Assembly (NCBI GenBank): GCA_913031135.1
Contig: CAJWEH010000003.1
Location: forward strand, 1 to 60,833
DNA length: 60,833 nucleotides
Origin: an uncultured Puniceicoccaceae bacterium
GTDB taxonomy: Bacteria > Verrucomicrobiota > Verrucomicrobiia > Opitutales > Coraliomargaritaceae
Direction: 5' to 3'
Shown here: piece by piece, positions 13,867 to 20,070 of the stretch
How positions within the stretch are numbered: position 1 is the stretch's first letter
How the letters are laid out: every line of letters begins with the position of its first letter
The notes under the pieces: generated by a model
What the model was told of the DNA's origin: nothing
The model's database searches: none
Seen by the model: only the letters and a program-made list of their open reading frames with translations
Translations under genes and position numbers: made by a program

Positions 13867-15327
13867 CTAATCTTTTAGGCAATGTAAATTAGTCATTGAG
13901 ATGCCACTTAGCATAGCGCCAATAATGCCTAGAAAGCCTTGGTCTGTGCCAGCGATAAAGAGATTATCTAAGTGAGTTCTTCCATCTTTAATTTTCTGAG
14001 GTGCACCATAAATTGCGCCATTTATATGTCCGGTATATTTGTGTACGGTTCTTGGAGTGAACATATCTGTCGCTATTATTTCTGAAGGGATCTTTTGAAG
14101 TGATTGTTTTGGCTCAAGAATATTTAATGCGACTTCTTGCAGTTTTGAATACCAATAGTTCTTTTGTTTTTGATAGTTGGTTTCTTCTAAATTAAACCAA
14201 TCTTTTGGATGGGCGAGCGCTGTAATTCGTAAGATTCCATGTTCAAGGGTTTCACAATTAGGGTATTCGTAGTTGTTGGGCATACAAATAACACCGCTTG
14301 CAGGATCAACTAATTCACTAGTTGGTGATTGGTACTTAAAATCATCCTGTTCACTAAAAAATATAATGGTATCTTCCCACCCTAGATCTTTTGGTTGGTC
14401 TTCAAATAAAGTAATGGTTTCCGTAAATCCTAGGTTTCCAATATTTTTTTCTGACTGTGCGGGAGTGGGTTTGCAAAGTTTGAAGGTCTCACTAATTCCA
14501 GCAGTCGAGATGATTTTGTCCGCGGTGATAGAGGAACCGTCATCTAGAGTTAGGTGGCTTACAGAGCTGTTTTTAGTGCAGATTTTTTGTACTCCACAAC
14601 GCATCTTTCGGATTCCACCTAGTGAACGATATTGATCTTGAAGTGCTTTAATTATGGTTCGAACTCCATTGAGTGGTCGGGCAAAACCTTCAAAAAACAA
14701 AGATCGAAACATAATCGCAAACTGCCCGAAATCCATATCATGTTCCGTTGCACTTCCATAATACATAGTTGGACATAGTAGCATTGATTCTAATAGAGGG
14801 TTTTGAAAAAATCTTTGAATGCTCTGGCGTGTGGAAGTAAATTCATTGCTAAGATTGAAAGCATCTAAGTCACGAATGGTATGAGACAATTTTCGGAAGC
14901 CGTCTATTTCATTGGGGAATTGATCGGCGACTTGAGATTCTAAAAAGCTAAAGTCATTACTAAAAAATAATTCTGCGGAGGGAAAATGGATCTTGGATCG
15001 TTTTTGAGGTGCTAGATCAAAGGCGTCGTATGGGATTCGCAATTGCCTAAGTAGCTTTGTTAGAGGGGTTCCTTTTGTGCCTTTTGGGACATAGTTCGTG
15101 AGTGCATGTAAGCCCACATCGTATTTAATCCCGTTGATACTATAAAATGAATTCAGACCCCCCGAGGCGTTATGCCTTTCTAGAATGATGGATTTTTTGC
15201 CTGCTAAGCCTAATCGGATGCCCGAGGCTAATCCAGCCATACCTGCTCCAATAATTACAACCTCAAAATGTTGACCATCTAGGTTTGAGTTTTGTTTGCT
15301 TTTTTCTACTGGTGTGGGTTGTGTCAC
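13867..15327 (-). CDS. Phytoene-desaturase-like FAD oxidoreductase
   Basis: A 486-residue flavoprotein of the CrtI/CrtISO/amine-oxidase superfamily. The FAD-binding dinucleotide fold is VVIIGAGMAGLASG at about residues 23-36, followed by LERHNASGGLNSF. The C-terminal FAD segment is LFIAGTDQGFLGIIGAMLSG. The substrate cannot be read from sequence. The gene lies 23 bases after an ACP gene and then a FabF-like ketosynthase gene, which suggests action on an acyl chain or a polyene rather than on carotenoids; no carotenoid genes are nearby. Confidence 0.82.
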   Translation of the reverse strand: MTQPTPVEKSKQNSNLDGQHFEVVIIGAGMAGLASGIRLGLAGKKSIILERHNASGGLNSFYSINGIKYDVGLHALTNYVPKGTKGTPLTKLLRQLRIPYDAFDLAPQKRSKIHFPSAELFFSNDFSFLESQVADQFPNEIDGFRKLSHTIRDLDAFNLSNEFTSTRQSIQRFFQNPLLESMLLCPTMYYGSATEHDMDFGQFAIMFRSLFFEGFARPLNGVRTIIKALQDQYRSLGGIRKMRCGVQKICTKNSSVSHLTLDDGSSITADKIISTAGISETFKLCKPTPAQSEKNIGNLGFTETITLFEDQPKDLGWEDTIIFFSEQDDFKYQSPTSELVDPASGVICMPNNYEYPNCETLEHGILRITALAHPKDWFNLEETNYQKQKNYWYSKLQEVALNILEPKQSLQKIPSEIIATDMFTPRTVHKYTGHINGAIYGAPQKIKDGRTHLDNLFIAGTDQGFLGIIGAMLSGISMTNLHCLKD

Positions 15328-15350
15328 TTGCTCAATGCCTATTACTAAGA

Positions 15351-15599
15351 CTAAGCATTAAATTTTGGCGTCAAGTAGTCAGCGCAACTATCTAAGGATG
15401 CCAATTGAGGATAATCTTCTTCAGGCACCTCAATGCCGTGTTGTTTTCTTAGTTCCATGACTATATCAAGAAAGTCCATTGAGTCTAGATCCATTTGATC
15501 TCTAAGATTTACTTCTGCTTTCAAATTTGAAGTATCTTCATCTGGTGCTATTTCGTTAATGATATCAATTACGATTTGTTTTACTTGTTCAGGAGTCAT
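15351..15599 (-). CDS. Acyl carrier protein (second copy)
   Basis: An 82-residue carrier protein with S40 in LDSMDFLD, a form close to the DSLD motif, as the expected phosphopantetheine site. Helix pattern and acidity fit an ACP. It sits eight bases after a FabF-like gene and before a flavoprotein gene on the same strand, so it is probably the dedicated carrier of that module rather than the housekeeping AcpP, though this cannot be excluded. Confidence 0.88.
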   Translation of the reverse strand: MTPEQVKQIVIDIINEIAPDEDTSNLKAEVNLRDQMDLDSMDFLDIVMELRKQHGIEVPEEDYPQLASLDSCADYLTPKFNA

Positions 15600-15607
15600 A
15601 TTCTGTA

Positions 15608-16852
15608 CTAATTTGAGGAAGGATTATATTTTTTCAATACTAGAGCTGAATTAATTCCTAGCATTCCAAATGAGTTGTTAAGAATTACATCCACTGAGTC
15701 AATGGTGATTGGTTTATTTATCACCAAGTTCTTTACGGCACATTGCTCGTCAAGGTTTTCAACATTTATAGTCGGGTGGATTGTGTTATCCTCAAAGGAG
15801 GGCAGATTTCCCGCCAATTCTAATGCCCCAGCTGCTCCCATTGCGTGTCCAATAAATCCCTTCGTATTGTTCACATAGGTGTTTTCACTCTCTGAAAATA
15901 CTTCTTGGATAGCCTTACATTCTTGAATGTCTCCTTGAGGGGTCGATGTTGCATGCGTGCTGATCAAATCAATATCCTTTGGATTCAGCCCAGCGGATTC
16001 TATCGCTTTTTTCATACATTGTGCCTGGCGTTCTGGATTTGGCAGGACATAATCGCTCGCATCAGAGTTCATGCAGTATCCAATTATCTCAGCGATAATA
16101 GGAGCGTTCCTATTTAAGGCATCCTCCAATCGCTCGAGAACATAGACACAGCCGCCTTCAGCCACTACAATTCCATTTCGATCTATATCAAATGGTCGAC
16201 TTGCCATATTTGGGTCTTCGTGTTTTGCCAAGGCTCCTTGACTTTTAAATCCAGCAAATATGCCAAAAGTCTGGATGCTTTCACTCACGCCCCCAGCTAA
16301 TGCATAATCAATTTCTCCAAGCCTCAGCATTTGTGTGGCTTGAATAATACCAGCATTTCCAGCAGCACAAGCCGCTCCTATAGTATAGTGCGGGCCAGTA
16401 ATGCCCATGTTTATAGTGACCTCACCGGCTGGATTATTGGCAACGGTTCTAGGGTTGTGGTGGTGCGTCCAATAGCGAGTATCGTAGTCAAATTTAGAAA
16501 TATTATAGACCTCGTTTTCAGTTTCAACATTTCCATGTTCTGTCGTCCCTAGATAGACACCCATTCTAGATTTATCTATGGAATCAAGGTCTAATTGGCT
16601 ACTAGCTATCGCTTCCCTAGACGAATAAATTGCAATACTGCCAGCTCGAGTTCCGACTCTTAATTCTTTTCGAGACTGATATTTTTTTGCATCAAAATTA
16701 CAGACACCAGCCGGAACATCGCCCATGTATCGTATGTCAATCATCTGAATATTAGCGATACCCTCGAGTAAATTTTGGCGAAATTCTTGAAGGCTATTGC
16801 CATTTGGTGAAGTGAGTCCGACCCCAGTAATAACTATTCGTGATGAATGCAT
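15608..16852 (-). CDS. Beta-ketoacyl-ACP synthase II-like protein
   Basis: A 414-residue FabF-like condensing enzyme with the full Cys-His-His set: C162 in GAACAAGNAG, H300 in STHATSTPQGD, and H336 in GFIGHAMGAAGA, with K331 ahead of it. It extends acyl-ACP by two carbons from malonyl-ACP. It differs from housekeeping FabF in the segment YWTHHHNPRTVANNP (about 127-141). It heads a three-gene minus-strand unit with an ACP and a CrtI-like flavoprotein, and is divergent from the sigma-factor gene. Confidence 0.9.
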   Translation of the reverse strand: MHSSRIVITGVGLTSPNGNSLQEFRQNLLEGIANIQMIDIRYMGDVPAGVCNFDAKKYQSRKELRVGTRAGSIAIYSSREAIASSQLDLDSIDKSRMGVYLGTTEHGNVETENEVYNISKFDYDTRYWTHHHNPRTVANNPAGEVTINMGITGPHYTIGAACAAGNAGIIQATQMLRLGEIDYALAGGVSESIQTFGIFAGFKSQGALAKHEDPNMASRPFDIDRNGIVVAEGGCVYVLERLEDALNRNAPIIAEIIGYCMNSDASDYVLPNPERQAQCMKKAIESAGLNPKDIDLISTHATSTPQGDIQECKAIQEVFSESENTYVNNTKGFIGHAMGAAGALELAGNLPSFEDNTIHPTINVENLDEQCAVKNLVINKPITIDSVDVILNNSFGMLGINSALVLKKYNPSSN

Positions 16853-16991
16853 TCTTTAAGAAAATTTTCTGAATCTTTTATTTGTAGGTTATCGCTTTAT
16901 AAGACTTTCAATTAGATTCAAACTATTTGTATAGTGTGCAAATCTTTTCTTTTGCAATTTTTTAAAGAATTATTTTATTTAAGTTGTTATT

Positions 16992-17630
16992 ATTAATAAA
17001 AATACAGCTAATAGCATCGTTTCTAATATCCAGAAAACGGATGCAAGTACTCATTTAACTGAGCGTCAAAAAGATTGGGCGATCGTACAGAGTGTCCAAA
17101 ATGGGGATGTTCGCGCCTTTGACCAATTAGTTAAAAAATATCGTGAGCCTATATTTGCGATGATTTATAATATGACGGGTAATCGAGAGGATGCTTCTGA
17201 TCTTGCGCAAGATGTTTTTATTAAATCATTTCGATCGATTAATCGGTTCAGAGGAAATGCTTCATTTTACACGTGGATTTATCGTATCGCTGTAAATACA
17301 TCGATCACCTTTATTAAAAAGTCTAAAAAACAGCGCTTTTTAAATTATGAAACAATTAATGAAGAACTCGTTAGCCAAGAAATCTTGGAATCTTTGACCG
17401 CCAAAAATAAGACAGAAAAAGGTGCTATTTTGTCTGAATTACAGGAAAAATTGAACGCTGGGCTTCAAAAATTGTCTTCTAAACATAGACTCGTGTTAAT
17501 TTTACACGATATTGAAGGCATGGATCATAAATCGATAGGAGCAATTACGAAGACGAGTATTGGTACGGTTCGTTCTCGCTTACACTATGCAAAAAGAGAA
17601 TTACAAGCATATTTAAAAGATTATTTATAA
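16992..17630 (+). CDS. Sigma-70 family (ECF-type) RNA polymerase sigma factor
   Basis: An ECF-type sigma factor. From the first ATG (17160) it would have 156 residues and lack the start of region 2. The frame is open upstream to a stop at 16980-16982 and encodes a normal region 2 entry (DWAIVQSVQNGDVRAFDQLVKKYREPIF at about 17073-17156), so the true protein begins earlier. That stretch has no ATG, GTG, TTG or CTG; ATT codons at 16989 and 16992 are the candidates, and 16992 is my guess. Region 2 continues with DLAQDVFIKSFRSI; region 4 is HKSIGAITKTSIGTVRSRLH. A putative anti-sigma gene follows after 19 bases. Confidence 0.85.
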   Translation: MNKNTANSIVSNIQKTDASTHLTERQKDWAIVQSVQNGDVRAFDQLVKKYREPIFAMIYNMTGNREDASDLAQDVFIKSFRSINRFRGNASFYTWIYRIAVNTSITFIKKSKKQRFLNYETINEELVSQEILESLTAKNKTEKGAILSELQEKLNAGLQKLSSKHRLVLILHDIEGMDHKSIGAITKTSIGTVRSRLHYAKRELQAYLKDYL

Positions 17631-17649
17631 AAAGAATAGTCGCACATAT

Positions 17650-18177
17650 ATGGATCAGAAAAAAGACAATATCAGTTTAGAAGAATTACTTAAGATCAAA
17701 TCTGCAGAACGTCCAAATGAGCAATTTTGGGAGCGGTTTGATCTTGAGCTCAACGAGCGTGCCTTGAAAACATGCATTAAGAAAGAAACTTGGGGGGATC
17801 TAATCGGATTTAATTTAGTGGATAAGTTGCTTCCTGTTGCTTCTACCGTGGCAGTTGTTTTATTGCTTGGACTTGTTTCTTTTGTGCAATTTTTTCAACC
17901 AAATGCTCAGCAGTCTTTCAAACTGGCAGAAGCAAGTTCTTATGAGCCTATGGCAGAAACTATCGATGTAAGCTTGCTTGCAAATAATAGTGCGGTGTCT
18001 GAAGATTATGCCGTTGAAATCATTACACTTTCTGCTGATTCTGATAAATTGGATTTTGAAGCTGACATCATTCCTGTAGCGATAGGGTCAACTGCAGATT
18101 ATACTGATTCTACTCCAGACACGACTACATTGAAATACACTCAAGCCTATACTCAGTTAGCTAGTTACGCATTTTAA
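17650..18177 (+). CDS. Putative anti-sigma factor, single membrane helix
   Basis: A 175-residue protein with a cytoplasmic, charged N-terminal part (1-58), one membrane helix at about 61-82, and an outer domain rich in acidic and small residues. It lacks the HxxxCxxC zinc anti-sigma motif. Its place directly behind a sigma gene and the N-in, one-helix layout fit an anti-sigma factor. I do not recognise the sequence family, so the role is inference from position and topology. A pseudoprotease gene follows after 14 bases. Confidence 0.6.
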   Translation: MDQKKDNISLEELLKIKSAERPNEQFWERFDLELNERALKTCIKKETWGDLIGFNLVDKLLPVASTVAVVLLLGLVSFVQFFQPNAQQSFKLAEASSYEPMAETIDVSLLANNSAVSEDYAVEIITLSADSDKLDFEADIIPVAIGSTADYTDSTPDTTTLKYTQAYTQLASYAF

Positions 18178-18191
18178 GGTTTTGTTAAAGT

Positions 18192-19199
18192 ATGCTTTTA
18201 CGATTCCGCCCCAAATTAATTTTATTACTTTTGCTTGGCTACCTTTTAGTAAGTCCTAGTTTACTACTTGCGAAGCAAACCTTAGTGCAGGACCAAATAT
18301 TCAAGGTTTTTGAAGAGTATAAAAGCGCCATTGTTCGAGTTAAAGCAGCTTATAAAAAAGAGGCAGAAGAAGGTAAGCCGTCTCAAATTAACCTAAGGGT
18401 AGGAACGGGTTTCTTTGTTAGTTTAGAGGGGCATGTATTGGTGAATGCCAGCCGAGCCATCGGTGCAGACCACGTGCAAGTGGAATACCAAGGTATTTCA
18501 TATCCGGCTGAGTCATTGGGTCATGATCCAATAACCAATGTGTCTCTTTTGCGTTTATTAAAATTGCCGGAATCTTTTGAAGTGATTCGATTTGATCTAG
18601 CAATGGAAGAACCCGCTATCGGAACCTTAGTTGTTTCAATCGCCGCTCCATTGGATTTAGCGCCTTCGCCTTCATTCGGTATGATTGGAGGCTTTGATAA
18701 AAAGCTTGGCGACAAGATATTTCCAACAGCTTATTTGCGTACGACCATACCGATTGGTGCTGGCCAAGGTGGTTGTCCTATTTTAGATTTAAATGGACGT
18801 TTAATTGGTATGTCTGTGGCATCAATCCCAGATATGAATGGCTCGTATTGTTTGCCTGTTTCCGCTTTAGCAAGCGTTAAAGATGATCTGTTATATTCGG
18901 GAAAGCCAGATCGAGGGTGGATTGGCCTTGAGGTGAAAGAAAATATCTCAGAGCAAAATGAGCATAATGTCTATATCTCAAAGATCATTGCATCCAGCCC
19001 TGCCAAGGAAGCAGGACTGAAGGAAGGCGATCTAATCATTTCACTCTCGGATATTCCTGTAAAAAGAATCATTGATTTGCCTTCAGCTATTTTTAAAACC
19101 CGTATCGATCGCTACGCCCCAATAAAAGTTATTCGAGGGGATAAAACATTGAGTTTTTCCATTAAGGCAGTGGAACGCCCTCAAGCAGAGGCTCCTTGA
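18192..19199 (+). CDS. HtrA-like pseudoprotease with PDZ domain
   Basis: A 335-residue exported or membrane-anchored protein (hydrophobic residues 9-27) with a trypsin-like domain of HtrA type (about 70-225) and a PDZ domain (about 240-327). The fold is clear: GTGFFVS, DPITNVSLLRL, GQGGCPILDLNGRLIGM. All three catalytic positions are changed: the His site reads VNASRA (S87), the Asp site TNVSL (N116) and the Ser site GQGG (Q192). It therefore should not cleave peptide bonds. Third gene after a sigma and a putative anti-sigma gene, it may sense unfolded envelope proteins by its PDZ domain. Confidence 0.82.
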   Translation: MLLRFRPKLILLLLLGYLLVSPSLLLAKQTLVQDQIFKVFEEYKSAIVRVKAAYKKEAEEGKPSQINLRVGTGFFVSLEGHVLVNASRAIGADHVQVEYQGISYPAESLGHDPITNVSLLRLLKLPESFEVIRFDLAMEEPAIGTLVVSIAAPLDLAPSPSFGMIGGFDKKLGDKIFPTAYLRTTIPIGAGQGGCPILDLNGRLIGMSVASIPDMNGSYCLPVSALASVKDDLLYSGKPDRGWIGLEVKENISEQNEHNVYISKIIASSPAKEAGLKEGDLIISLSDIPVKRIIDLPSAIFKTRIDRYAPIKVIRGDKTLSFSIKAVERPQAEAP

Positions 19200-19290: not shown

Positions 19291-20070
19291 ATGAATATCT
19301 CAAATAGCTTTCTTTCGCTCAATCAGTTTATCAGCCGTAGGTCGATAATATTTCTGTTTTTAGCTTTTTGTTCATCTTTGTCTTTGAATGCAGATATCGC
19401 TCTTAATTTTGAAGAATTGACTACTTCAAACAATGTCTACGGAAGTTCAGGGGTTGAAATCTCTTGGACTGGAACTTTGAATACAGAGGGTCTTCAAGGA
19501 AATATTTCACCAAGTGGTCGATTATTAGTGCAGTCTTCATTCTCTAGTCTGAGTCGCAGTAAAGAGATGCATTTTGCTTCATCCTCTTCTGGCTTTACTA
19601 TTTGGACGACGACAAATACGAGAACATCAGATGCGGCAGAAGGTGCTTTTATTCCGAATCCAATTTTTGAGATCAATTCCGCGAGGCAGAATTTCCAGTA
19701 TTTTAGTTCTAGTCCATCGGAATCAGAATCGGCTTCAAATAATTTCATAGTGATTGGAGACACTTTTGGGATTCAGCAGACAATTGATGCCACATCAAAC
19801 CAGGTGACTGAGACGGCTATTTTAACTCCTTTAGGTTACGATTCTGGGGATTCAATTACGGGTACTGCTTTCTTGAGAAATGTAACGCTTTCCGATCTTC
19901 GTTTGCCTTCATTGCAGGAATTAATTGAAGCGAATGAAGTTTTTGAAACCTCTGTGAATATTGGAACTGATACCATCAGTTATAGGGTGGTGCCTGAGCC
20001 AAGTGCCTATGCATTGATTTTAGGCGGGCTTGTGTTAGGAGTGATTATTTTCAGAAAGCAAAGCTCTTGA
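19291..20070 (+). CDS. PEP-CTERM sorted exported protein
   Basis: A 259-residue secreted protein with an N-terminal signal peptide (about 1-34) and a classic PEP-CTERM tail: VPEPS at 234-238, a hydrophobic helix, then the basic end FRKQSS. Exosortases cut at such tails and pass the protein to the cell surface. The body is Ser/Thr-rich with beta character, and no enzyme motif is visible. It stands alone, 91 bases after the pseudoprotease gene, and is the only PEP-CTERM protein in this window. Confidence 0.9.
   Translation: MNISNSFLSLNQFISRRSIIFLFLAFCSSLSLNADIALNFEELTTSNNVYGSSGVEISWTGTLNTEGLQGNISPSGRLLVQSSFSSLSRSKEMHFASSSSGFTIWTTTNTRTSDAAEGAFIPNPIFEINSARQNFQYFSSSPSESESASNNFIVIGDTFGIQQTIDATSNQVTETAILTPLGYDSGDSITGTAFLRNVTLSDLRLPSLQELIEANEVFETSVNIGTDTISYRVVPEPSAYALILGGLVLGVIIFRKQSS

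Follow-up and report, generated by a model that had tools for sequence, protein, structure and literature searches.

A sigma factor operon of Opitutales and related bacteria with a triad-less HtrA-like protein and a conserved aromatic C-terminus on the putative anti-sigma protein

The window analyzed here is a 60,833-nucleotide stretch from an Opitutales bacterium, whose genome is 1.28 Mb in size and 97.6% complete. It contains an operon of three tightly spaced genes on the plus strand, encoding an ECF sigma factor (16992..17630), a putative anti-sigma protein with one transmembrane (TM) helix (17650..18177), and an HtrA-like protein with one PDZ domain (18192..19199). The initial annotation had described three close plus-strand genes at 16992-19199, for an ECF sigma factor, a one-helix protein and an HtrA/PDZ protein. 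Both the arrangement and the identities were confirmed by Pfam, the sequence itself, AlphaFold and Foldseek. A divergent group of genes on the minus strand (13867-16852) adjoins the operon. It comprises a FAD oxidoreductase gene (phytoene-desaturase-like), an acyl carrier protein-like open reading frame and ketosynthase genes, which might together form a small pathway for lipids or polyenes. The gene after the operon (19291-20070) encodes a short PEP-CTERM protein. The same genome also carries one other HtrA, which is DegP-type with the H-D-S triad intact (L002), and an M50 protease that is RseP-like and has PDZ domains. Among its outer-membrane proteins, BamA (...SRY) and a TonB plug protein (...ITF) have aromatic ends.

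The sigma protein has sigma regions 2 and 4 only (Pfam Sigma70_r2, 9.5e-17; Sigma70_r4, 1.4e-10), which is the domain content of an ECF factor. Its top NCBIfam match was RpoE, below that model's cut-off, and it is 47-69% identical to its orthologues across the order. No ATG, GTG or TTG was found at the expected start of the gene or in frame between 16983 and 17160. In-frame canonical starts are available only from 17160, and a start there would cut into sigma region 2. In close relatives, the sigma ATG lies at about the place of ATT ATT in the window, and the start codon is probably a non-canonical ATT at 16989 or 16992. Either ATT serves as a rare start codon here, or the sequence contains an error at this place. 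Within the genus, AAATCTTTTCTTTTGCAATTTTTT (16940-16966), which lies upstream of the sigma gene, hardly varies, and a core resembling TTTGCAATTT is seen again in the family. This element is a possible promoter or leader; the region upstream of the operon was checked for an ECF promoter by eye only.

The second protein (175 aa) has a helical, conserved N-terminal domain with invariant K17, E20, P22, W27 and F30. A hydrophobic TM stretch follows at approximately aa 61-82 (17830..17895), where AlphaFold models a long helix (48-82). Apart from the N-domain and the C-terminal end, the protein is poorly conserved, and its outer tail is variable and predicted by AlphaFold to be disordered. The zinc-type (ZAS) HxxxCxxC motif is absent and there is no invariant His or Cys, in agreement with the initial annotation, which had proposed an anti-sigma protein without a zinc motif. 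No family match was obtained in Pfam, NCBIfam or PDB profile searches, and so none that would tie the protein to RseA. Gene order, topology and the helical N-domain suggest that this is an anti-sigma protein whose cytoplasmic N-domain would bind and inhibit the sigma factor.

The third protein (335 aa) starts with a signal peptide or anchor at approximately aa 1-28 (18192..18275); the N-terminus is hydrophobic in nearly all orthologues, and AlphaFold places a helix at 6-46. As in HtrA/Deg proteins, a trypsin-like domain is followed by a PDZ domain (Pfam Trypsin_2 and PDZ_2). The PDZ domain covers approximately aa 237-326 (18900..19169), based on the Pfam PDZ_2 match at aa 244-325 and a search with the PDZ alone. 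The AlphaFold model is confident (pLDDT 92.7) and has the DegP/DegS fold. The top Foldseek matches were DegP and DegS structures, several of them with bound outer-membrane-protein peptides.

The His-Asp-Ser triad of HtrA/Deg proteins is missing from this protein. Alignment to DegP-type chains puts Ser87 (18450..18452) at the position of the catalytic His, Asn116 (18537..18539), which is nearly invariant in the order, at that of the Asp, and Gly193 (18768..18770) at that of the Ser. The first two replacements had been read correctly in the initial annotation. The third had been given as Q192, one residue too early, since the GNSGG of DegP aligns with GQGGC. What had been taken for an extra Cys after the GG of the Ser loop is actually a replacement within the loop, at a position that varies among orthologues (C/S/A/T/G). 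The family alignment contains no invariant or nearly invariant His, Ser or Cys; a hidden or substitute active site was rejected for this reason, so that a usable catalytic set elsewhere in the domain, which the initial annotation had named as refuting its view, found no support. Judged from sequence, the catalytic residues needed for cleavage of an anti-sigma factor are absent from the HtrA-like protein, which is called the dead HtrA below.

Of 29 relative genera, 28 had homologues. A profile search covered 223 genomes from the order and 188 from the class. The dead-HtrA family was present in 138 of the 223 genomes of the order, not counting weak generic HtrA hits, and in many families of the class. 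The triad was read in approximately 130 operon copies, taken from the order, its class and one further class; a few of the loci represent a single genome that two tools had both picked up. None had the triad H-D-S, so that this gene position is never occupied by an intact-triad homologue among them. The states read most often were S-N-G within the order, and x-G-x or x-N-x outside it. All three triad positions vary in the family. The earlier view that this sensor cannot cut is well supported by the lack of a triad in any copy, and the accompanying idea that it acts by binding is plausible. Control HtrA matches, including 74 in one set and the other HtrA of the host genome, read H-D-S. The exception among the controls was a group of DegP-like HtrAs of another class that read His-Glu-Ser (L334, L336-L339, L347, L352, L353). 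In the Akkermansia-type HtrA-like protein, the protease domain is decayed further and Pfam recognizes the PDZ only.

The sigma gene lies upstream of the HtrA gene in most operon copies. Across the 223 genomes of the order, 130 had both the sigma factor and the dead HtrA, 8 had only the HtrA, 22 had only the sigma factor, and 63 lacked both (Fisher p = 1.5e-27, with relatedness not corrected). One family, f13, accounts for 20 of the 22 sigma-only genomes; the dead HtrA was sought elsewhere in the f13 genomes and was not found, and the HtrAs examined there were all H-D-S. Another family, f16, has the dead HtrA gene elsewhere in the genome and still keeps it. The dead HtrA, therefore, does not always adjoin the sigma pair, a constancy that the initial annotation had put forward for checking.

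In a tree of 75 HtrA sequences, made with a quick method and with the root not fixed, all 40 dead sequences formed one clade with one state change (SH-aLRT 100). The clade persisted when the triad columns were removed, and a copy from another class with the triad D-N-N (L305) falls inside it. The origin of the family is old: the single clade of dead HtrAs points to one probable loss of catalysis, dating to the base of the class or earlier. The dead HtrA is under purifying selection, with dN/dS between close relatives of approximately 0.09-0.29. Decay of a single gene into a pseudogene was considered and rejected because the frames are open across the class and dN/dS is approximately 0.1-0.3.

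The anti-sigma protein of the window ends in TQLASYAF. The codons of the last three residues, Tyr-Ala-Phe (YAF), lie at 18166..18174 and encode the proposed PDZ ligand. This aromatic, PDZ-ligand-like C-terminus is new here and was absent from the initial annotation; being conserved, it provides a concrete site for the binding idea. In genomes with the dead HtrA, the last residue is Phe or Tyr in 133 of 140 copies. These comprise 77 of 83 HtrA-linked copies in the order (aromatic majority in 23 of 26 families), all 12 copies where the dead HtrA is unlinked (2 of 2 families), and 44 of 45 copies from other families (23 of 24). For comparison, the anti-sigma end was Phe or Tyr in 6 of 25 sigma operons that have no HtrA, f13 excluded, and aromatic C-termini were found in 2/95 HtrA and 0/87 sigma proteins used as controls. 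Outside the order, the anti-sigma end is often PVSYExxxSF.

Various families depart from this association. In f13, which has lost the dead HtrA, all 16 anti-sigma proteins end in Phe, mostly as Lys-Phe. The idea of a tail confined to genomes with a dead HtrA is, thus, false for f13, where the Phe end that was kept must serve something else. The f13 anti-sigma proteins (L128-L143) are longer than usual, at 281-343 aa from stop to stop, and their ends are mostly alternating-hydrophobic (e.g., VSIKF and LTLKF), resembling outer-membrane beta-signals. Akkermansia-type operons (family f29), which are beyond the 140 copies, had an aromatic end in 0/7, all being Met. At the Akkermansia-type loci L161 and L295-L301, seven anti-sigma proteins have the end LIEM and one has LIEF. 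Families f45 and f48 have no operon HtrA and combine aromatic anti-sigma ends with an unlinked active-type one-PDZ HtrA; f39 also has an unlinked active-type one-PDZ HtrA, yet its anti-sigma end is not aromatic. Possibly, the aromatic tail predates the dead HtrA and was originally recognized by an active HtrA.

DegS is the textbook PDZ protease, which senses misfolded outer-membrane proteins and then cuts the anti-sigma factor. The PDZ domains of DegS and AlgW bind aromatic C-termini, YQF and WVF, and the ligand-binding positions of AlgW are W281, L282, V284, E285 and K287 (PMC8545111). The carboxylate-binding loop of the PDZ domain in the window, RGWIGLEVK (aa 241-249; 18912..18938), is conserved in the family with G245 invariant, and it fits the AlgW positions by spacing and by identity of the residues named in that study (PMC8545111). 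Because DegS and AlgW take aromatic ends and the loop is AlgW-like, we infer that the PDZ of the dead HtrA may bind the aromatic C-terminus of the anti-sigma protein. In DegS and AlgW the PDZ protease cuts, whereas the window-type HtrA would, from its sequence, act without proteolysis, and here the anti-sigma protein itself bears the aromatic end. MucE of Pseudomonas is periplasmic, and its aromatic C-terminus (WVF) serves as the ligand of an HtrA PDZ (PMC8545111). It resembles the anti-sigma tail in having an aromatic C-terminus, an HtrA PDZ partner and a place in a sigma circuit, but MucE activates a live protease, whereas here the tag sits on the anti-sigma protein and the HtrA is dead (PMC8545111).

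These observations may reflect an envelope-stress module in which the PDZ of the dead HtrA clasps the C-terminus of the anti-sigma protein and outer-membrane-protein ends compete for it, a reading that we find about evenly balanced between right and wrong. The small anti-sigma protein, with its one TM helix, would keep the ECF sigma factor at the membrane and extend into the periplasm a disordered tail with an outer-membrane-protein-like aromatic end, YAF in the window. The dead HtrA, unable to cut, would grip this end by its PDZ and, as long as there is no stress, would stabilize the anti-sigma protein or conceal its tail. Misassembled outer-membrane proteins have Phe or Tyr ends as well and would be competing ligands of the PDZ. 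Once let go, the tail would be exposed to an active protease, for which the host DegP and RseP are candidates, and the sigma factor would be released. The Phe ends of f13 without a dead HtrA, the Met ends of f29 and the pattern in f45, f48 and f39 do not fit the clasp and count against it. More tentatively, the operon may be a class-wide, non-proteolytic outer-membrane sensor, in which a one-time DegS-like protease would hold the anti-sigma end in its PDZ and stress would be read by competition for this PDZ and not by activated cutting.

The same contact could have the opposite outcome if the dead HtrA were an adaptor or activator that hands the anti-sigma tail to the DegP-like protease of the host, with binding promoting sigma release. 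The dead HtrA MamO stimulates proteolysis by MamE, its active paralogue (PMC4794232), the only other HtrA of the host genome reads H-D-S, and the presence and C-terminus data all fit this explanation equally well. DegP, however, is a general protease that genomes lacking the dead HtrA retain as well, and we consider an adaptor role rather unlikely. The retention of the Phe tail in f13, with ends like VSIKF and LTLKF and no dead HtrA found, bears on another explanation. Here, the tail would be read by an active PDZ protease, RseP or BAM, and the dead HtrA would act as a periplasmic chaperone that is co-transcribed as one of the regulon's outputs. Inactive HtrA variants still work as chaperones (PMC11642142). 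Outside f13, on the other hand, the sigma factor and the dead HtrA almost always occur together, also when they are unlinked, and so close a tie to one sigma factor would not be required of a general chaperone, which makes this explanation unlikely as well.

Ordinary proteolysis of the DegS-RseA type would require the HtrA-like protein to be an active site-1 protease with an unusual catalytic set. The fold and the gene order are those of sigma/anti-sigma/HtrA operons. With no conserved His, Ser or Cys in the family and with variation at all three triad positions, we regard an active protease as highly improbable.

Several known systems resemble the operon of the window or the proposed clasp in part. 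MucD is an active protease, and RseB, which grips RseA, is a non-cutting shield in E. coli. DegS-RseA-RseB-RpoE in E. coli and AlgW-MucA-MucB-AlgU in Pseudomonas share with the window operon a one-PDZ HtrA and a one-TM anti-sigma protein. The clasp can be likened to the grip of RseB on RseA, made here via a contact between the PDZ and the C-terminus instead. The rpoE-rseA-mucD operon of Stenotrophomonas maltophilia and Xanthomonas campestris encodes a sigma factor, an anti-sigma factor and the HtrA-type protease MucD (PMC4229105). It has the same order as the window operon, with an ECF sigma factor, one anti-sigma protein and an HtrA-type protein in tandem, and the statement in the initial annotation that no system with such a layout had been described is, thus, incorrect (PMC4229105). 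The difference lies in the third gene: MucD is an HtrA-type protease, whereas the HtrA is dead, with no active-type member, in every operon copy read. MamO of magnetotactic bacteria is also an HtrA-family pseudoprotease kept for non-catalytic roles, but it binds metal, activates MamE and, unlike the HtrA of the window, has no tie to a sigma/anti-sigma pair (PMC4794232).

The gene layout with an active-type protease (PMC4229105) and HtrA pseudoproteases such as MamO are, thus, already known. In the open-access literature searched, nothing relevant was found on Verrucomicrobia ECF/HtrA systems or on HtrA pseudoproteases with sigma factors, and there was no precedent for a class-wide dead HtrA linked to a sigma factor and an anti-sigma protein with a PDZ-type tail. 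The whole class seems to retain the DegS-type parts, minus the cutting, with a tail of the recognized kind placed on the anti-sigma protein. If true, sensing would be separated from proteolysis in this envelope stress response, and the idea would be directly testable with one PDZ and one nine-residue tail.
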